Shown here: in pieces, positions 7,173 through 54,004 of the stretch
Numbering within the stretch: the first letter of the stretch is position 1
Layout: each line of letters opens with the position of its first letter
Source: Clostridiaceae bacterium
GTDB taxonomy: Bacteria > Bacillota > Clostridia > DSM-8532
Direction of reading: 5' to 3'
Length of the DNA: 64,000 nucleotides
NCBI GenBank assembly: GCA_012719545.1
Contig: JAAYAD010000088.1
Span: 1 to 64,000, forward strand
The notes under the pieces: model-generated
Databases searched by the model: none
What the model was told of the DNA's origin: nothing
The model's input: only the letters and a program-made list of their open reading frames with translations
Program-made: the position numbers and the translations under genes

Positions 7173-7697
7173 ATGGCAATCTACGAGCAATTATCATTTG
7201 ATAATATTGAGGTATCGGAACCAAAGCCCGAAATTAAACTTTTCCAAAAAATTTATAGCTTTATAAAAGAAAAATATGATGATGCTGAAAGTGTGACTTT
7301 AAAAGTTAATAAATCCTATTTATCCATATGCTTTTTTAGGGTTCCAAAGTTGCGAATCAAAAAAGTTAAGAATGAAGTATTTCTTGAAATACCTGAGCAT
7401 TTTAAGGATGAGCTTAATAGGCATAACATTGAAAACACTGTTACAGCGGATCATTACTATAGAGTTAAAGTACCTGGTTTTATCTCAAATAATCTTCGGG
7501 CGCTTATTTCAGATATCTATGAATATTGTTATAGAAAATATTCTGATGAGCGTTTTGATTGCTGTTCCAGATATTTAGAGTGCTCGGATAATAAAATGTG
7601 CTGCTATGAAGGTCAAAAGTTTTCAAGAGCATGCAGTTATCATTATAAGTTAAAAGATGGAATTATCTTTTTTGGTAAAAACAGAACTATTAAATAA
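7173..7697 (+). CDS. Cargo protein with C-terminal Cys cluster
   Basis: 174 aa; ATG 7173 follows GAGGTTTAAAG. The N-terminal ~120 residues are mixed alpha/beta with no recognised motif. The C-terminus carries FDCCSRYLECSDNKMCCYEG then ...RACSYHYKLKDGIIFFGKN: seven clustered cysteines, consistent with a zinc or Fe-S site, and a GIIFFGKN end that I recall from other small phage/host proteins. It is 21 nt before the TerB-BRCT gene and likely cotranscribed with it. Confidence 0.6.
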   Translation: MAIYEQLSFDNIEVSEPKPEIKLFQKIYSFIKEKYDDAESVTLKVNKSYLSICFFRVPKLRIKKVKNEVFLEIPEHFKDELNRHNIENTVTADHYYRVKVPGFISNNLRALISDIYEYCYRKYSDERFDCCSRYLECSDNKMCCYEGQKFSRACSYHYKLKDGIIFFGKNRTIK

Positions 7698-7718
7698 GTT
7701 GATGTTATGGGTGAAATT

Positions 7719-8690
7719 ATGAGCGCGAAATCAATTGAGCATTATGAAGATTTATCATTTAAGAAATATATGAGCAAAGCTCAGCGTGATAAAGCAATTA
7801 TGACTTTAGAAGGGATACTAAGAGGCATTTCATTAGACGGAAAAATAAAAAGTAAAGAAGTAGAAGAGCTCGCTTTTTGGTGTAATTTAAACAGGCAATA
7901 CATAAATAAAAGTTTTTTCAAAGAGGTTATCCCAGTAATTGATGAAGCATTAAGAGATTATACCCTCACCCGTGAAGAAATTGAGGATATTCTTTGGGTG
8001 TGCGAACATTATGTAAATCCAATGAAATATTATTCTGGATTAACTGTCAAAACACAGCGACTTCATGGGATACTACATGGTATTCTTGCTGACAATGAAA
8101 TTACTGATGAAGAAATAATCGCATTAAAAGAATGGATAGATAGAAACACAAGCCTTATGGGTTCTTATCCTTATGAAGAGATTAAAAGCCTTTTACTCTC
8201 TATTCTAGAAGATGGCGTTATAAGTGAGGAAGAGCGGAATATTCTTAAACTCTTCTTTAGTGAGTTTGTGGATCTGAGCCAGTCACTAAATCTTAATGCA
8301 TTAGAAATTGAAAAGTTACAGAATGAGATCACCATACATGGTATCTGTATGAATAACCCTGAAATAACTTTTAAGGATAAGCTTTTTTGCTTTACTGGGG
8401 TATCGTCCAGAGCCAAAAGGGGAGATATAGCGAGGCTAATTGAAGAACGCGGTGGGAAGTACAATGACAATGTAACTGGAAAAACAGATTACCTCATCGT
8501 GGGAAATGAAGGTAATCCATGTTGGGCTTTTTCATGTTACGGCCGGAAAGTGGAAAAAGCAATGAATATGCGCAAAGAAGGAAAGCAGATATGTATAGTA
8601 AATGAAATAGATTTTTGGGGTGCAGTGCAATCAGCATCATCAAAACCGGAACAGTTTAGTATCGTATTAAAGTTGGAAAAAAATCAATAA
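7719..8690 (+). CDS. TerB-like/BRCT fusion protein
   Basis: 323 aa. Residues ~20-200 contain two or three helical repeats with acidic loops (GILRGISLDGKIKSKEVEEL; GILADNEITDEEIIAL; ILEDGVISEEERNILKLFF) in the TerB/tellurite-resistance style, which bind metal in relatives. The C-terminal ~90 residues are a BRCT domain (FKDKLFCFTGVSSRAKRGDI, ERGGKYNDNVTGKTDYLIVG), as in NAD-dependent DNA ligase or PolIII-epsilon relatives. ATG 7719 has GGGTGA upstream and is preferred over ATG 7707. It suggests a DNA-end or damage sensor; function unproven. Confidence 0.75.
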   Translation: MSAKSIEHYEDLSFKKYMSKAQRDKAIMTLEGILRGISLDGKIKSKEVEELAFWCNLNRQYINKSFFKEVIPVIDEALRDYTLTREEIEDILWVCEHYVNPMKYYSGLTVKTQRLHGILHGILADNEITDEEIIALKEWIDRNTSLMGSYPYEEIKSLLLSILEDGVISEEERNILKLFFSEFVDLSQSLNLNALEIEKLQNEITIHGICMNNPEITFKDKLFCFTGVSSRAKRGDIARLIEERGGKYNDNVTGKTDYLIVGNEGNPCWAFSCYGRKVEKAMNMRKEGKQICIVNEIDFWGAVQSASSKPEQFSIVLKLEKNQ

Positions 8691-20599: not shown

Positions 20600-21400
20600 T
20601 CACCCCAAAGCTTCATGTGCCTCTTTTACCACTTTAGCGGCATTTATCTCTGTTTTAATCTCAGAATCGCCATTTAAAAGATATATCAGATACTCAATAT
20701 TCCCTTCAGGCCCGGTAATAGGAGAGAAAGAAAGGCCGCCTACGGAAAAGCCCAGGTTCTCTGCCACATTAATGACATTATTAATTACTTCCTCATGAAC
20801 CGCAGGATCCCGCACAACGCCCTTCTTGCCCACTTTTTCCCGTCCTGCTTCAAATTGGGGTTTTATGAGGCACACGGCCCGTCCATCCTGCTTTAACAGC
20901 TCTTTTAATGGCGGCAGAATAAGCTTGAGCGAAATAAAGGAAACGTCTGCTGCGCCGAAATCAAGTGGCTCACTAATCTGCTCCCTTGTTACATAGCGGA
21001 AGTTTGTACGTTCCATGCATACAACGCGCGGATCATTTCTAAGCTCCCAGGCAAGCTGACCGTATCCTACATCCACAGCATAGACCTTTTTAGCACCGTT
21101 CTTGAGCATAACATCGGTAAAGCCGCCTGTTGAAGCGCCCACATCCACACATACGAAATCCTTAAGGTTCAGGTTAAATTCATTAATGGCCTTTTCAAGC
21201 TTAAGGCCTCCCCGGCTTACGTACGGATTAACCTTGCCCTTGATTTCAATCTCGCATTCCTCTTCAAACTTGGCCCCGGGCTTGTCACAGCGTTCACCGT
21301 TTATAAATACCAGCCCGGCCATTATGGCTCCCCGGGCTTTTTCTCTGCTTTCAAAAAGCCCTTTTGAAACAAGTATGACATCAAGTCTTTCCTTGGACAT
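20600..21400 (-). CDS. tlyA: TlyA-family rRNA 2'-O-methyltransferase
   Basis: 266 aa: an N-terminal S4 RNA-binding domain (RLDVILVSKGLFESREKARG) joined to an FtsJ-like methyltransferase with VDVGASTGGFTDVMLKNGA and the KDKE-type residues (K79-ish, VSFISLKLILPPLKELL, CLIKPQFEAGREKVGKKGVV). TlyA ribose-methylates 16S and/or 23S rRNA. It follows dxs by 9 nt, the usual order in Clostridia. Confidence 0.93.
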   Translation of the reverse strand: MSKERLDVILVSKGLFESREKARGAIMAGLVFINGERCDKPGAKFEEECEIEIKGKVNPYVSRGGLKLEKAINEFNLNLKDFVCVDVGASTGGFTDVMLKNGAKKVYAVDVGYGQLAWELRNDPRVVCMERTNFRYVTREQISEPLDFGAADVSFISLKLILPPLKELLKQDGRAVCLIKPQFEAGREKVGKKGVVRDPAVHEEVINNVINVAENLGFSVGGLSFSPITGPEGNIEYLIYLLNGDSEIKTEINAAKVVKEAHEALG

Positions 21401-21409
21401 TGCAACCTC

Positions 21410-23293
21410 TCACTTAAACATTTCCTTTATACTCTTTTTAATACCAGCGGCATCCAGTCCGTACTTCCTTAATACCAGACTTTTTTCCCCGTGTTCAATG
21501 CCTTTGTCGGGTAAGCCCAGTACAAGGCAACGGGCATTTAGTTCTTTATTACTGATAAGTTCTGTTGCATAGGAGCCGAAGCCTCCGTTTTTGATGGCAT
21601 CCTGTATAACAACTACTTTACCTGTCTTTCTGGCAGATTCCAAAATAAGGTCATCATCTGCGGGTCTTAAGAATCTGGGATTAATAATCTCACAGGAGAT
21701 TCCTTCACTTTCAAGAAGTTCGGCAGCCTCACAAGCTATATTAAGCATGTATCCTATACCAATCAGGGTTACATCCTTGCCTTCCTTTACGACTACTCCC
21801 TTTCCGAATTCCAGCGGGGTATGGCTTCCCGGAATCTCATGGCCGGAACCTCTGGGATAACGTATGGCAATTGGGCCCTGGTGCTTAAGCACGGCATATT
21901 CAAGCATTTCCTCAAGTTCATTTGGTGTTGCAGGCGATAATATGGCAAGATTGGGGATGGTGTAAAGATATGAAATATCATATATACCCTGATGGGTCTC
22001 CCCATCATCTCCCACTATACCGCACCGGTCAATGGCAAAAACCACTTTAAGCTTCTGGAGGGCAACATCGTGGAGAATCTGGTCGTAAGCCCTTTGAAGA
22101 AAAGTGGAATATATTGCTACAACAGGTTTTACTCCGCCCATTGCAAGGCCGGCCGCCAAGGTTACCGCATGCTGCTCGGCAATACCCACATCAAAAAAGC
22201 GCTTTGAAAATGCTTCCTTAAAGGGTCTTAAACCTGTCCCGTCCGTCATGGCGGCTGTAATTGCCACAATATCATTATCTTTCTGGGCAAGCTCGCAGAG
22301 CTTATTTCCAAAAACCGAGGAATAGTTCAGGCTTCCAGGCTTAAGTACCTGTCCGGTTTCAATTTCAAAGGGCGCAATCCCATGGAAGATATCAGGTTTG
22401 TCCTCTGCAAAACTGTATCCCTTTCCTTTTACTGTTTTGACATGGACAAGAACAGGCCCTTTCATGGTCTTTGCCTGCTCCAAAACCGACACCATTTCTT
22501 TTATGTTATGACCGTCAATGGGTCCAAAATAGCGGAATCCCAGCTCCTCAAAGAACATTGACGGGATAAGCATACTCTTCATGGCACCTTTTATTTTATG
22601 AATTAACTTCCTCACCCTTTTTCCAGTCCTGGGTAAGGAATCAATAAATGCCTGCATGCTTTCCCTGGTTCGATAATACAGGGGCCTTACCCTTACCCTG
22701 TTTAAATAGCGGGAAAGTCCCCCGACATTGGGAGCAATGGACATACCGTTATCGTTAAGAATAATCAGAAGCTTTGTACGTGACATTCCCGCATCATTGA
22801 GGGCCTCAAATGCCATACCACCTGTCAGCGCTCCGTCACCTATGACTGCTGCCACCGTATAAGTTTCGCCTTTTAAGTCTCTTGCTCTTGCCATTCCAAG
22901 GGCTGCTGAAATGGAGGTACTGCTGTGGCCTGTGTTGAATGCGTCATAGGGGCTTTCATCGGTTCTTGGAAAACCTGAAATGCCGTTAAGCTGGCGCAAT
23001 GTGCCAAAGACATCTTTTCTGCCGGTTATAATTTTATGAACATAGGTCTGATGTCCAACATCCCAGATAATCTTGTCCCTGGGAGCATTAAGAACCTTAT
23101 GAAGAGCAAGGGTAAGCTCTACAACCCCCAAGTTTGATGCAATATGTCCCCCTGTTTTTGATACAGTCTCCAACAAAAACTTTCGGATTTCTTCCGACAA
23201 CTGATTTAATTCTGTATAGTTCAGTTTCTTTATATCATCGGGACTGTTAACTTTTTCAAGCAGTTCTCCGTGTCTGTATACTTTATCACTCAA
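21410..23293 (-). CDS. dxs: 1-deoxy-D-xylulose-5-phosphate synthase
   Basis: 627 aa thiamine-diphosphate enzyme opening the MEP isoprenoid pathway from pyruvate and glyceraldehyde 3-phosphate. The TPP fold shows GDGALTGGMAFEALNDAGM; the pyrimidine domain has GIAEQHAVTLAAGLAMGG and YSTFLQRAYDQILHDVAL. Length is standard. It lies after oapA and before tlyA; with ispA at 25-26 kb it places two isoprenoid genes around the OLE RNA. Confidence 0.97.
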   Translation of the reverse strand: MSDKVYRHGELLEKVNSPDDIKKLNYTELNQLSEEIRKFLLETVSKTGGHIASNLGVVELTLALHKVLNAPRDKIIWDVGHQTYVHKIITGRKDVFGTLRQLNGISGFPRTDESPYDAFNTGHSSTSISAALGMARARDLKGETYTVAAVIGDGALTGGMAFEALNDAGMSRTKLLIILNDNGMSIAPNVGGLSRYLNRVRVRPLYYRTRESMQAFIDSLPRTGKRVRKLIHKIKGAMKSMLIPSMFFEELGFRYFGPIDGHNIKEMVSVLEQAKTMKGPVLVHVKTVKGKGYSFAEDKPDIFHGIAPFEIETGQVLKPGSLNYSSVFGNKLCELAQKDNDIVAITAAMTDGTGLRPFKEAFSKRFFDVGIAEQHAVTLAAGLAMGGVKPVVAIYSTFLQRAYDQILHDVALQKLKVVFAIDRCGIVGDDGETHQGIYDISYLYTIPNLAILSPATPNELEEMLEYAVLKHQGPIAIRYPRGSGHEIPGSHTPLEFGKGVVVKEGKDVTLIGIGYMLNIACEAAELLESEGISCEIINPRFLRPADDDLILESARKTGKVVVIQDAIKNGGFGSYATELISNKELNARCLVLGLPDKGIEHGEKSLVLRKYGLDAAGIKKSIKEMFK

Positions 23294-23315: not shown

Positions 23316-24011
23316 TTAATGGTTGTTTGATTTCTGTTTCCCATTACCATTACCATTTCCATTTTTTCTGCACTTCTTTGATTTTTTTCCGTTCTTGCCT
23401 ATGGGAAGAACAGAAAGCATGCGTCCTGCAATATATACGATATAGTCTGCATTATTCATTCCTATATTCTTTGTAAAGCCCTTTCCACCTACAGTAACTG
23501 CTGCAATAAAAGCGCCTACCAGAACCTCGATAACAGAAACATTGGCACTGTCGGCAAAAACCCTGTACACAATTGCTGTTCCCGCTGCACCGCTTACAAC
23601 ACCGCAGATATCACCCACAACGTCGTTGCAGAAGCTGGAAACACGCGATGCATTTCTAAGAAGCATTATGGACTGACGTGCTCCCTTTATTTTTTTTGAT
23701 GCCATTGAATGAAAAGGTGTTTCGTCGGCGGCTGTTACTGCTATTCCAACTATATCAAACATTATACCTATAAGAATGATTCCAAGAACCACCAAAGCGG
23801 CCATGGGCGCCGAAATTACCCTGAAAATGCTTGTAGAAGCAAAGAGAATAAGAATTGAAAGTGAAAAGGACACCAATGTAATAAAAAAACCCCAGAGGAT
23901 ATGTTTTTTTTCTATCCCAGAGCTTCTTTTAACCGGAATGCTTTCTTTTGTTAATCTCCTGTATTTGTCAAGGAGCTTAAAATACCTTTTTTCCGATTTA
24001 TCCTTGTCCAA
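23316..24011 (-). CDS. oapA: OLE-associated protein OapA
   Basis: 231 aa. Four membrane segments: HILWGFFITLVSFSLSILIL, SAPMAALVVLGIILIGIMFD, then FCNDVVGDICGVVSGAAGTA and SVIEVLVGAFIAAVTVGG. Between helices 2 and 3 is the conserved-type stretch DETPFHSMASKKIKGARQSI. OapA proteins bind OLE RNA and hold it at the membrane; loss affects alcohol, cold and Mg tolerance in Bacillus halodurans. TTG 24011 is chosen because AGGA lies 6 nt upstream and no in-frame ATG precedes it. The C-terminus is a basic NGNGNGNG tail, unusual in simple sequence. Confidence 0.85.
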   Translation of the reverse strand: MDKDKSEKRYFKLLDKYRRLTKESIPVKRSSGIEKKHILWGFFITLVSFSLSILILFASTSIFRVISAPMAALVVLGIILIGIMFDIVGIAVTAADETPFHSMASKKIKGARQSIMLLRNASRVSSFCNDVVGDICGVVSGAAGTAIVYRVFADSANVSVIEVLVGAFIAAVTVGGKGFTKNIGMNNADYIVYIAGRMLSVLPIGKNGKKSKKCRKNGNGNGNGKQKSNNH

Positions 24012-24029
24012 GTATGATCCTGCTTTCAA

Positions 24030-24705
24030 AAATAAGTAGTTTAAAAATATACAATTATCGTCAACAGGATGGCAACAACCCGAGTAAATTTTGCGTCTTA
24101 GGTCAGGCAGGTTTTCCCCGTATCGTACCGGAACGTCACCATTCCGGCGGTTTCCCTTTAAACAATACGTTGAGAGGTTGCCCTCGTCAAAGCCTGATCG
24201 CCACTTAGTCCACACTGCAATCCCCGGATTGCCTAATGGAATTAACAGCCTAGGGGTTTTCCCCTTAAGTCTTACCTAACTTCTAGCCTCTTTTGCACCA
24301 TTGGTTTCATACGGCAATATTGCTCATGTACCGGCCAGTACATAAACACCTGATCCGTAATCCTCCAATCAGCACTCAAGGCAGGCTACACTGTCCACAG
24401 CATCAAAAGTGATACCGCATGACAGGTTCACTCCCTCCTCGTAGTCAAGATTTGTGTCGCTTGCGCGAGGCAATCTGTCTCCCACGAAAGAGGGTCTCCG
24501 CGGTAGAGGGGTCAACTCCCGCATGCCATTGCGGGCTGCCCCTAAACCTTAACTCCCAGCATCAGCCCATCACTGGGCGTAACAAGCCGACACAAGGAAC
24601 TTCATCGATGTGCCCTTTTACGGATTTTTAGGCCCGTCCTCGAAGTAGGCAGTACTGACTAGGATACTGCACCATCCCATTGACTTTTCATTGGAAGATA
24701 ATTAT
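24030..24705 (-). ncRNA. ole: OLE RNA (ornate, large, extremophilic)
   Basis: About 680 nt of GC-richer, non-coding minus-strand sequence between the DUF212 gene and oapA, in the canonical OLE setting (xseA-xseB-ispA upstream, oapA-dxs-tlyA downstream). Stable helices are visible: CCGGAA...TTCCGG (24128-24147), GTACTGGCCGGTAC (24328-24341) and CCCGC..GCGGG nested in a GGGGC/GACCCC pairing (24518-24535). Size fits OLE RNAs (~600-700 nt). Ends are approximate. Identification is from context, size, structure and the adjacent oapA, not from an alignment. Confidence 0.85.
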
Positions 24706-24721
24706 ACAATAAAACTGCAAT

Positions 24722-25159
24722 TTATGCAAACAAGACGGCTACCAGCACGCCCAGAACGGCTCCCAGAATGACTTGTATGGGGGTATGGCCCAGAAGCACC
24801 TTAAGCTCTTTTTCAACCTTGATTTCCTTAGAAAAGTATATCAGCTTGTTAAGAACCTCGGCCTGCTTTCCTGCGGCGCGTCTTACGCCGGTAGCATCGG
24901 CCATGACAATAAAGGCAAGAACCGTAGCAATAGCAAAGTATCCAGAATTAAACCCATAATGGATGCCAAGAACAGTTGCAAGGCATATTGAAATGGCAGT
25001 ATGTGAGCTTGGCATTCCGCCGGAAGCTACAAATTTCGTAAAGTCAACCTTACGGTGCTGTATAAGATAAGTGGCAAACTTTATAAACTGGGCAAGAAAC
25101 CATGAAAATATGGGCAATATTATGGCTTTATTTGATGCAATCTCCGCTAAAACAGTCAA
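24722..25159 (-). CDS. DUF212/YuiD-type PAP2-like membrane protein
   Basis: 145 aa. GGMPSSHTAISICLATVLG, then FIVMADATGVRRAAGKQAEV LN and LLGHTPIQVILGA: this is the divergent PAP2 (DUF212) family, with a phosphatase-like His-containing motif set and four membrane helices. It may act on polyprenyl or phospholipid phosphates; unproven. TTG start follows GGGGAGA. It lies between ispA and OLE RNA. Confidence 0.85.
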   Translation of the reverse strand: MTVLAEIASNKAIILPIFSWFLAQFIKFATYLIQHRKVDFTKFVASGGMPSSHTAISICLATVLGIHYGFNSGYFAIATVLAFIVMADATGVRRAAGKQAEVLNKLIYFSKEIKVEKELKVLLGHTPIQVILGAVLGVLVAVLFA

Positions 25160-25184: not shown

Positions 25185-26075
25185 CTATTTATTTCTTTCT
25201 GCAATCCAGCAAGCCATCTCGGTTAAAAATCCCGAATTGTCTATATTTTTAAGGGAATCGGCGGCCCGCTGCGTTGACTCCTTAAGAAGAGCCTTTGCTT
25301 TATTTAGTCCAAGCAATGTTACAAAAGTACTTTTATCATTTTTCTCATCTGTTCCGACAGGCTTTCCGACAATCTGGCTGTTTCCTTCAACATCCAGAAT
25401 ATCGTCCTTTATCTGAAAGGCAAGACCTAAGCTTTCAGCATAAATTTCCAGCGATTCAGTGATTTCATCAGGAACGTTAAAGAGCCTGGCAGGCATAAGT
25501 ATACTTGCTTTAATTAATGCGCCTGTTTTCTTTTTATGCATCTGGCATAGTTCATCATAAGTTATTTTCTTTCCCACTGCCTCAATGTCTATAACCTGTC
25601 CGCCTATCATTCCCTTTGTACCAGATGCATCGGCAATAAGTTTTGCAGCTCTGGCACAATAAAGGCTGTTGTTTTCTTCCTTAATTGATTCATTCAGCAT
25701 AATTTCAAAAGCCAGGTTCAGTAATCCGTCGCCGGCAAGAACCGCCATAGCCTCTCCAAAAACTTTATGATTAGTTGGTTTTCCACGTCTAAAATCCGAA
25801 TTGTCCATGCATGGCAAGTCATCATGGATAAGGGAATAGGTATGGATAAGCTCAATGGCGCATGCAAAGGGCAGCACCTTTTCTTCGTCCAAATTCAGCA
25901 TGTCGCATACGGCCAGAGAAAGCACTGGTCTTAATCTTTTGCCCCCTGCGGTCAGGCTGTATTTCATTGACTCGTAAACTGTCCTTTCAAGGCAATTTAA
26001 GTCAAATTGCAGATTGTCCTGCAGCCATTTTTCTACCTTATCAGAATATTGCTGAAATTTAACCAAAAAATCCAT
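25185..26075 (-). CDS. ispA: Farnesyl/geranyl diphosphate synthase
   Basis: 296 aa trans-prenyltransferase making C15 diphosphate for undecaprenyl and quinone lipids. First Asp-rich motif LIHDDLPCMDNSDFRRGKPT, second QIKDDILDVEG, plus GGKRLRPVL substrate motif. ATG 26075 with GAGGG upstream is 1 nt past the xseB stop, so the longer frame starting in xseB is rejected. Second isoprenoid gene of the OLE neighbourhood. Confidence 0.95.
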   Translation of the reverse strand: MDFLVKFQQYSDKVEKWLQDNLQFDLNCLERTVYESMKYSLTAGGKRLRPVLSLAVCDMLNLDEEKVLPFACAIELIHTYSLIHDDLPCMDNSDFRRGKPTNHKVFGEAMAVLAGDGLLNLAFEIMLNESIKEENNSLYCARAAKLIADASGTKGMIGGQVIDIEAVGKKITYDELCQMHKKKTGALIKASILMPARLFNVPDEITESLEIYAESLGLAFQIKDDILDVEGNSQIVGKPVGTDEKNDKSTFVTLLGLNKAKALLKESTQRAADSLKNIDNSGFLTEMACWIAERNK

Positions 26076-26076
26076 G

Positions 26077-26322
26077 TTATAATCCCTCTGGGTCAAAGTC
26101 CTTTTCCGTCTCGCTGTCTTTTCCCTCAATAATCAGTGTTATGCGCTTTTCAATATCGTCAAGCTTCTTATTGCACAGGCGAACCAGACTTACTCCCCGC
26201 TCAAACATTTTAATTGATTCATCCAGAGTCAAATCTCCGCTTTCAAGAAGATTTACCACACTTTCCAATTCCGCCATGGCCTGCTCGTATGGCATATCAT
26301 TTCTATCATCTAATTTTTCCAT
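26077..26322 (-). CDS. xseB: Exodeoxyribonuclease VII small subunit
   Basis: 81 aa with the family pattern PYEQAMAELESVVNLLESGD LTLDESIKMFERGVSLVRLC. Several copies coat the large subunit in ExoVII, which degrades ssDNA. Lies between xseA and ispA; the stop codon is 1 nt from the ispA start. Confidence 0.95.
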   Translation of the reverse strand: MEKLDDRNDMPYEQAMAELESVVNLLESGDLTLDESIKMFERGVSLVRLCNKKLDDIEKRITLIIEGKDSETEKDFDPEGL

Positions 26323-51419: not shown

Positions 51420-53075
51420 TTATTTTCTGTCCCTGGCGCGTATTTCGGTACGGCGTATTTTTCCGCTTATAGTCTTTGGAAGCTCGTCAACAAATTCAAT
51501 AATACGCGGATATTTGTAGGGTGCAGTATGGGATTTTACATATTCCTGAATTTCTTTTTTCAGCTCCTCAGAGGGGTTATACCCTTTAGCCAGTACAATG
51601 GTAGCCTTTACAATATTTCCGCGTATGGGATCGGGTACTCCGGTAACTGCGCACTCCAGAACAGATTTATGTTCCATAATAACGCTCTCAACTTCAAAAG
51701 GCCCGATTCTGTATCCCGAGGATTTAATAATGTCATCGGTTCTTCCCACATACCAGAAGTAGCCGTCTTCATCACGCCATGCGGTATCACCGGTATGATA
51801 CAGGCCATCATGCCTTGCCTGGTTTGTCCTTTCCTCGTCCCTGTAATACCCGATCATTAAGCCCACGGGCATTTCCTCTCCGTAGCGCACCACTATTTCG
51901 CCAACTTCACCGGGCTCAACACTGTTGCCGTCCTCGTCAACAAGATCTATGTCATAGTGGGGTGATGGTTTTCCCATTGCTCCGGGCTTGGGCTCCATCC
52001 AGTAAGGAGTCATCAGGCATGCTGTGGTCTCGGTCTGGCCGAAGGCTTCCATGATTCTTATTCCTGTCATTTCCCTGAATTTATTGAACACTTCAGGATT
52101 TAATGCCTCTCCTGCCGTTGTGCAGTATTTGAGAGATGAAAGATCGAATCCCGAAAGATCCTCTTTAATAAGGAATCTATATATGGTTGGGGGTGCGCAG
52201 AAGGTAGTAACCTTATATTTTTCAATGCGCTTTAAAAGTTCCAGGGGGTTGAACCTGTCAAAATCAAAGGTAAATACTGTGGCCTCTGCAAGCCACTGGC
52301 CATATAATTTTCCCCACACAGCCTTACCCCATCCTGTTTCCGAAACAGTGAAATGGAGTCCGTCCTGAGCCACATTGTGCCAGTAAACGGCAGTTGGGAT
52401 ATGCCCCAGTGGATAATAATAATTATGGGCAACCATCTTAGGCATTCCTGTTGTGCCTGATGAAAAATACATGAGCATTATTTCGTCTGCTTTTGGCCTT
52501 GCTTCGCCTGTTGGAGGAACAAACGGGGGAGCATTTTTAACTCCTTCCTCATAGCTTATCCAGCCTTCCTTGACACCTCTTACAATTATTTTCACCTTCA
52601 GGGTTTCGGTCATGGCCTGGGCTTCATCCACAAGGTCGGATATATTTCCGTCAGAGGTGCATACAACAGCCTTGATACTGGCGGCATTCACCCTGTATTC
52701 TATATCCTTTGTCATAAGCTGGTTGGTGGCGGGAATAGCTATGGCACCAATCTTGTGGAGGGCAATCATGAAATACCACCATTCATAGTGGCGCTTCAAT
52801 ATCAGCATGACAGGGTCGCCCTTTTTTATTCCCAGACTTAAAAGCCATGAGGCAATTCTGTCGCTGTTTTCCTTAACGTCCGAAAAAGTTATGTATTTTT
52901 CATCTCCGGCTTCATTGCACCAAACCATTGCAAGTTTGTCGGGCTTCTCAACAGCAAGCCTGTCCACAACATCATATGCAAAATTAAAGTAAGGATCTTT
53001 TTTAAAACTGACCTTGGTCACATGACCTTTTTCATTTAATTCTTCAATGACAAATTCTTTATACAGTCTTGACAT
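51420..53075 (-). CDS. AMP-forming acyl-CoA synthetase (MACS-like)
   Basis: 551 aa adenylate-forming enzyme: FSSGTTGMPKMVAHNYYYP (P-loop), GEALNPEVFNKFREMTGIRI MEAFGQTETT, YHTGDTAWRDEDGYFWYVGR, and C-terminal SSGYRIGPFEVESVI...KTISGKIRR with the catalytic Lys. The ~550-aa size and the motif set resemble medium/branched-chain acyl-CoA synthetases. TGATG overlap with the regulator gene; both sit behind a T-box that reads as Ile-specific, so 2-methylbutyrate or another branched acid is a candidate substrate (inference). Confidence 0.9.
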   Translation of the reverse strand: MSRLYKEFVIEELNEKGHVTKVSFKKDPYFNFAYDVVDRLAVEKPDKLAMVWCNEAGDEKYITFSDVKENSDRIASWLLSLGIKKGDPVMLILKRHYEWWYFMIALHKIGAIAIPATNQLMTKDIEYRVNAASIKAVVCTSDGNISDLVDEAQAMTETLKVKIIVRGVKEGWISYEEGVKNAPPFVPPTGEARPKADEIMLMYFSSGTTGMPKMVAHNYYYPLGHIPTAVYWHNVAQDGLHFTVSETGWGKAVWGKLYGQWLAEATVFTFDFDRFNPLELLKRIEKYKVTTFCAPPTIYRFLIKEDLSGFDLSSLKYCTTAGEALNPEVFNKFREMTGIRIMEAFGQTETTACLMTPYWMEPKPGAMGKPSPHYDIDLVDEDGNSVEPGEVGEIVVRYGEEMPVGLMIGYYRDEERTNQARHDGLYHTGDTAWRDEDGYFWYVGRTDDIIKSSGYRIGPFEVESVIMEHKSVLECAVTGVPDPIRGNIVKATIVLAKGYNPSEELKKEIQEYVKSHTAPYKYPRIIEFVDELPKTISGKIRRTEIRARDRK

Positions 53076-53659
53076 CAGCTCATCCTCCCGTCATTATCTC
53101 TTATTACAACTGCCAGAAATACGCATGGTTCGCCGCCTGCGGCTACCATTCCGTGTCTGTGGGAGGCATCGTAATATACCGAATCCCCTTCTCTCATGAT
53201 GAACTCATGATCATCAATTTTCATCCTTAAGGAGCCCTTTAGAATATAATCAAACTCCTGGCCTTCATGGCTTCTCTGCATAATCTCGCCTTTTTCTGCG
53301 GCTTCATCATAGGGCGCCTCAACCAAAAAGGGCTCAGCATTTCTGTTTTTGAAAAGATAGGCAAGGCTCTGGTACTTAAGCCCCTTTCTTCTCTCAATGC
53401 GTAAGCCCTTTCCCTTTTTTACATGGGTGTAAACCGAAAGAGTGGGACCGCTTCCCGTTATTAGCTCGCTGATATCAACTCCAAGACGCTGCGAAACCTT
53501 GTAAAGAAAGGTAAAGGAAAAGTCGTGCTTGCCCTCCTCGCATTCAAGGTATTCTTCCTCAGTCATTTCCACAAGTTTAGCCATTTCAGATGCAGAGATT
53601 CCAAGATCTGCCCTAAGGCCCCGGATCCGCTCCGCAATTTCAAGAATCTTGTCTCCCAT
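53075..53659 (-). CDS. XRE-cupin transcriptional regulator
   Basis: 194 aa. N-terminal XRE helix-turn-helix (ILEIAERIRGLRADLGISAS EMAKLVEMTEEEYLECEEGK), C-terminal cupin (HEGQEFDYILKGSLRMKID, REGDSVYYDASHRHGMVAAG). These sense small ligands and often sit before acyl-CoA or amino-acid metabolism genes. ATG 53659 follows AAGGAGG. First gene after the T-box. Confidence 0.9.
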   Translation of the reverse strand: MGDKILEIAERIRGLRADLGISASEMAKLVEMTEEEYLECEEGKHDFSFTFLYKVSQRLGVDISELITGSGPTLSVYTHVKKGKGLRIERRKGLKYQSLAYLFKNRNAEPFLVEAPYDEAAEKGEIMQRSHEGQEFDYILKGSLRMKIDDHEFIMREGDSVYYDASHRHGMVAAGGEPCVFLAVVIRDNDGRMS

Positions 53660-53716
53660 TAGAAAAACCTCCTTGTCAATGGTATTGGATATCAATGAAT
53701 AATATAGCCGTATAAT

Positions 53717-54004
53717 CAAAAAAGCTCGTCCCGCAAAGCTATAGCCTTGCTGGGACGAGCTTGTATGCCCGTGGTACCACCCATTTTCTGCTTAAAAAAA
53801 GCACTCAATTTCAGGTTCTGACAAACCCTAGCCTGTAACGCGGCAAACGCGGCACCTTACATTCAATTTTCAGATGCCGGACTCCGGAAAGATGCCCATA
53901 ATATCCATCCTGCCTGCTCACACCAAACGCAGGCTCTCTGAAAGGACTTACCGATATTACAGAGGTTCCTTCATTGTCTTTAATATGTATTTTAAAACAA
54001 TATT
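53717..54004 (-). promoter_or_regulatory. T-box leader, tRNA-Ile type
   Basis: Minus-strand leader with Stem I motifs CAGAGAGCC...GTTTGGTGTGAGC, specifier ATC (53893-53891) followed by TTTCCGGAG, T-box sequence GGGTGGTACCACGGGC (around 53767-53783) and a terminator hairpin AAGCTCGTCCC...GGGACGAGCTTTTTT (53762-53717). The bulge TGGT (53779-53776) pairs with a tRNA end ...ACCA, i.e. discriminator A, which fits Ile (not Gly or His). Uncharged tRNA-Ile should switch on the cupin regulator and acyl-CoA synthetase. Confidence 0.87.

Follow-up and report, generated by a model that had tools for sequence, protein, structure and literature searches.

Among bacterial RNAs that lack an assigned biochemical function, OLE RNAs are, to our knowledge, some of the largest and best conserved, and the class remains poorly understood. 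Halalkalibacterium halodurans requires the OLE particle to cope with cold, alcohol, high levels of magnesium and poor carbon sources. MpfA-type transporters generally anticorrelate with OLE. Cryo-EM structures of OLE revealed a dimer contact in which the GGCC of the P9 loop engages in a self-kissing loop-loop interaction (PMC12286853). A further dimer contact has been described between the P5 and P6 loops (PMC12265935), and the binding site of OapB has been assigned to P12.2/P13 (PMC9723947).

Here, we analyzed a 64,000-nucleotide stretch of an anaerobic Bacillota genome (the window), whose host shares its GTDB family with Thermoclostridium caenicola DSM 19027; our literature search found no paper combining OLE RNA and Thermoclostridium. 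We conclude, with a probability of about 98%, that the locus comprises a full-length OLE RNA gene (ole) and its partner gene, oapA. Like the OLE RNAs (RF01071) of H. halodurans and Clostridium species, the RNA matches the full-length model, shows the helices and dimer loops, is directly followed by oapA and resides in an isoprenoid-gene neighbourhood. It is thus a clean, ordinary example of a known RNA class, whose partner and neighbourhood were already known. The window copy by itself adds little; more informative are comparisons across genomes, which brought up a conserved putative promoter, loss of ole-oapA, duplication of ole with one copy lacking oapA, and a published anti-Shine-Dalgarno mimic that is missing from a broad set of OLE RNAs.

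The ole gene and its neighbourhood

Scanning the whole window against Rfam 15 with cmscan yielded a minus-strand match to the OLE model (RF01071; gathering threshold 50 bits) with a score of 524.4 bits and an E-value of 6.1e-151. The match is not truncated and covers positions 1–616 of the 616-position model. A single OLE copy was detected with this model in the host assembly (2.95 Mb), and none of 14 control genomes gave a match. Together with covariation far above shuffled and slid controls (see below), the absence of matches in the controls and the E-value of 6e-151 exclude a chance match. A preliminary description, made from the letters of the window, had proposed OLE RNA as a structured non-coding region of about 680 nt before oapA; the model search bore out both the presence and the identity of this RNA, while its actual length is 639 nt (Table 1).

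The RNA is of the full-length type rather than one of the P7–P9-reduced variants 1 and 2, as P7, P8 and P9 are all present. Indeed, its 524 bits exceed the published line of 390 bits between full-length and variant OLE, which was drawn with the authors' own, similar but different model (PMC11332333). With an insertion of 18 nt, the P7 loop is the sole place at which the RNA departs widely from the Rfam consensus.

On the minus strand, the genes are arranged in the order nusB-xseA-xseB-ispA-DUF212-ole-oapA-dxs-tlyA, which is the known OLE setting. The previously suggested position between ispA and dxs/tlyA thus holds, with the refinement that an additional gene, encoding a DUF212 (divergent PAP2) membrane protein, separates ispA from ole. 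In 79 of 80 independent loci, fetched by OapA alone, OapA is immediately preceded by OLE, and the remaining locus is truncated by a contig end; OapA is less than 250 nt from a contig end in L126, which lacks a recognizable upstream OLE, and in L147, which contains an OLE fragment only.

As the RNA directly precedes oapA, ending 42 nt from its start codon, it could be viewed as a long structured 5' leader, i.e. a riboswitch-like element regulating oapA, instead of a free-standing RNA. We consider this highly improbable, given that the OLE model is matched end to end, that Clostridium senegalense bears a full ole copy before dxs with no adjoining oapA, and that experiments in H. halodurans have shown OLE to be a free RNA bound to the membrane (PMC12265935). 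We therefore retain the assignment as an independent OLE RNA gene.

Table 1. Positions of ole, its sequence elements and neighbouring genes in the window.
Feature	Coordinates	Strand	Evidence or remark
ispA, polyprenyl synthetase	25185..26129	-	Pfam PF00348, E 3.2e-59
DUF212 (divergent PAP2) membrane protein gene	24722..25159	-	directly upstream of ole; Pfam PF02681, E 7.8e-48
Predicted ole promoter, TTTGCA - 18 nt - TATAAT	24701..24730	-	consensus scan; about 10 nt before OLE 5' end
OLE RNA gene (ole), 639 nt, RF01071	24053..24691	-	cmscan 524.4 bits; two-sided changes in 124/159 pairs
P5 loop, ACGCCCAGU	24572..24580	-	dimer contact with P6 loop
GGCC palindrome, apical P9 loop	24333..24336	-	in 48/51 OLE RNAs, AGCT in one more
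P13 hairpin, CCGGAAUGGUGACGUUCCGG	24128..24147	-	OapB-site region; present and pairing in Rfam alignment
oapA, 231 aa, TTG start, four predicted membrane helices	23316..24011	-	translation, start context, alignment, motif, AlphaFold2
dxs, DXP synthase	21410..23293	-	Pfam PF13292, E 1e-125
tlyA, S4-FtsJ methyltransferase	20600..21400	-	Pfam PF01728 and PF01479

Two other structured RNAs were found on the minus strand of the window, a large bacterial SRP RNA (RF01854; 51071-51335; 202.3 bits) and a T-box leader (RF00230; 53748-53983; 114.9 bits), the latter upstream of an open reading frame at 53075-53719. A phage origin was also considered and rejected, as no match was found in phage records.

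Conservation of OLE structure and dimer-contact loops

We aligned 51 OLE RNAs with MAFFT, without structural information and hence without fitting to the model, and transferred the Rfam structure of the window OLE to this alignment. The window OLE forms standard pairs at 148 of the 159 pairs of the model, and across the 51 RNAs 124 pairs show two-sided (compensatory) changes. In this alignment, 87.4% of the cells are paired, compared to 71.7% after shuffling and no more than 45.9% when partners were slid, a level that none of 500 shuffles and none of the slid controls reached; the covariation score is 0.489 (0.199 shuffled, at most 0.129 slid). Support is poor for the outer pairs of P6 (columns 170/212 and 171/211), which are mostly unpaired in relatives. 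This weakness agrees with published revisions of P6 and alternative kink-turn structures (PMC12286853, PMC9723947) and is no defect of the window copy.

All dimer-contact loops, P4, P5/P6 and P9, are kept in the window OLE, including the A-rich P4 loop, CCUAAAAAUCCG. The complementary P5/P6 loop motifs, GCCCAG and GGCAUG, are both present in 50 of the 51 sequences, and the P9 palindrome is similarly widespread (Table 1).

Unlike in H. halodurans OLE, P6 of the window OLE lacks the CCUCCU anti-Shine-Dalgarno mimic that has been discussed with respect to bS21 (PMC12054373). The hexamer did not occur in the 3' strand of P6 (alignment columns 203-217) in any of the 51 aligned RNAs, and the shorter form, CCUCC, was found in six. 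The mimic published for H. halodurans is therefore not conserved across this broad OLE set. Mutants M1–M3, in which the mimic is altered while pairing is kept, still bound bS21 (PMC12054373).

Some irregularities among the relatives trace to their assemblies. Fragmented OLE RNAs in G003 and G013 are located at contig ends, and what look like insertions in the OLE RNA and OapA of G002 are stretches of N that mark assembly gaps. On one contig of a metagenome-assembled genome (L128), OLE occurs twice in inverted orientation with identical scores (1315-1984 and 7257-7926); the second copy is probably an assembly palindrome.

OapA and the other partner proteins

The oapA gene begins 42 nt downstream of ole, with a TTG start codon at 24011 that is preceded by AAAGCAGGA, a context common to close relatives. 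A longer, GTG-initiated reading frame (23316-24215) enters the RNA by chance and was rejected, since the open frames at this location are clearly shorter in most relatives, an in-frame stop interrupting several of them. The window protein is 37–79% identical to 33 other OapA proteins, with 18 invariant columns in the alignment of all 34. It bears the OapA-specific DxxxD motif as DVVGD (residues 130–134), and a motif scan found DV[VI]GD in 34 of 34 OapA proteins. The earlier assignment as an OapA-like membrane protein is thus upheld, the protein aligning to OapA proteins that adjoin OLE in 79 of 80 loci. Its four predicted membrane helices, its DVVGD motif and the location of its gene directly after ole are all as known for OapA; nothing notable differs, the window protein having a TTG start and an Asn/Gly/Lys-rich C-terminal tail.

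In Pfam searches, OapA gave a sub-threshold match to the CNNM domain (PF01595; E 0.00064; 19.9 bits, cut-off 28.4 bits), behaviour that has been reported for OapA (PMC11332333). An AlphaFold2 model (pLDDT 80.5, pTM 0.63) predicts helices at residues 35–65, 68–94, 121–152 and 158–186. In structural comparison, its closest matches were transmembrane domains of two CNNM proteins, MtCorB and TpCorC (Z 10–12 over 123–133 residues; for 7m1t, Z 12.0 over 129 residues). The ranking is headed by four CNNM entries, well apart from the best unrelated chain (Z 6.3). Helical bundles call for care in such comparisons, although the sequence hint to CNNM agrees. Foldseek alone returned a marginal CNNM match (E 1.9e-3), and a PDB sequence search with an OapA profile gave nothing up to E 1. 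The modeled fold of OapA thus resembles the CNNM transmembrane domain, and, with CNNM proteins as top structural matches and a Pfam score below the cut-off, OapA is CNNM-like in its predicted fold without belonging to the CNNM family.

The weak Pfam match and the similarity to MtCorB and TpCorC could alternatively point to a degenerate magnesium transporter of the CNNM/MpfA type. There is very little room for this explanation, however, since the score falls short of the Pfam cut-off, a CBS pair or CorC_HlyC domain is absent from the 231 residues (as is any other Pfam match), and the protein carries DxxxD, which CNNM domains lack (PMC11332333). Moreover, the host genome encodes one full MpfA-type protein elsewhere. 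We therefore maintain that the protein is OapA.

The host also encodes the other two partners. OapB is a KOW protein whose gene lies between map and infA; its top hit in the PDB is 7k9b ("OLE-associated protein B", E 1.8e-8). A gene for OapC/YbxF is located just upstream of rpsL. Among the 32 genomes of the GTDB family, OLE is present in 29, OapA in 30, OapB in 31 and OapC in all 32. Of the 29 OLE-positive genomes, 14 encode one or more full-length CNNM proteins that score above the Pfam cut-off, so that OLE and MpfA coexist freely in the family. As the host carries an MpfA-type transporter as well, a simple model in which OLE and MpfA replace each other fails here.

Predicted promoter, proposed role, and loss and duplication of ole

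A general promoter scan of the ole region gave nothing above chance, yet a perfect TATAAT occurs at most 75 nt upstream of the conserved OLE 5' motif in all 24 family loci. Among 69 OLE loci on contigs of other genomes (close relatives included), a perfect TATAAT is found within the same 75 nt upstream of OLE in 47, compared to 3.8% of random windows, and the extended form, TGnTATAAT, in 29 (0.7% of random windows). Conservation of TATAAT in place upstream of OLE suggests, at the level of sequence, a dedicated ole promoter, which would fit the reported high abundance of OLE. On transcription, a review states only that the cluster of H. halodurans is polycistronic (PMC12265935).

In three loci of one genus (g6; L017, L020 and L021), the distance from TATAAT to the conserved OLE 5' motif is about 66 nt. 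An inverted repeat of varying sequence occupies the interval between TATAAT and OLE, about 20–60 nt upstream, suggesting an extra leader hairpin.

Beyond the directly supported identity of the RNA, conservation of its structure and dimer loops, the OapA fold and the presence of OapB and OapC, we infer how the particle would be expressed, assembled and employed. OLE RNA would probably be produced from its own sigma-70-type promoter (Table 1) and by read-through from the ispA operon. It would be expected to take the known OLE fold and to dimerize via the P4, P5/P6 and P9 loops. Based on the literature on other species, two OapA molecules would hold the RNA at the membrane; OapB would occupy P13, and OapC the kink turn adjacent to P5. 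Dimerization, membrane anchoring and a role in stress tolerance would thus apply to the window OLE by analogy with what has been published for other species. Again drawn from the literature, the most plausible unifying theme would be a function at the membrane that is connected with magnesium or manganese and that OLE has in common with MpfA, a transporter of the CNNM type.

One genome of the family, G026, assembled as a single 2.97-Mb contig, is missing ole and oapA. Its ispA, DUF212, dxs and tlyA genes are in order, and 177 nt alone separate DUF212 from dxs (L171:8212-8390); no OLE remnant was detected in this genome at E 0.1, and OapA is also absent. The genome keeps OapB, OapC and one MpfA-type gene, and its three congeners are all OLE-positive. 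G026 is thus a clean loss of ole and oapA, and as a natural knockout it could separate OLE-dependent from OLE-independent roles of OapB and OapC.

This loss in a relative, and the MpfA-type protein in the host, might be taken to mean that the window ole is likewise a decayed, non-functional copy. We regard decay as exceedingly unlikely, considering the 148 standard pairs among 159, the retention of the dimer loops and of the conserved nucleotides of the Rfam alignment, and the presence of the predicted promoter, OapA, OapB and OapC. An intact full-length ole gene remains our preferred reading.

We consider it likely that, across Bacillota, OLE is transcribed from its own strong, conserved sigma-A promoter, often with an extended -10 box (TGnTATAAT), independently of the isoprenoid operon, that its linkage to oapA is dispensable, and that the ole-less relative is a natural knockout. 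Clostridium senegalense JC122 possesses two ole genes that are 85% identical (L159:5859-6467 and L160:5349-5952). One occupies the canonical xseA-ispA-dxs-tlyA place without oapA; the other, located by transporter genes, is accompanied by oapA. The other six genomes searched in this genus have one ole or none.
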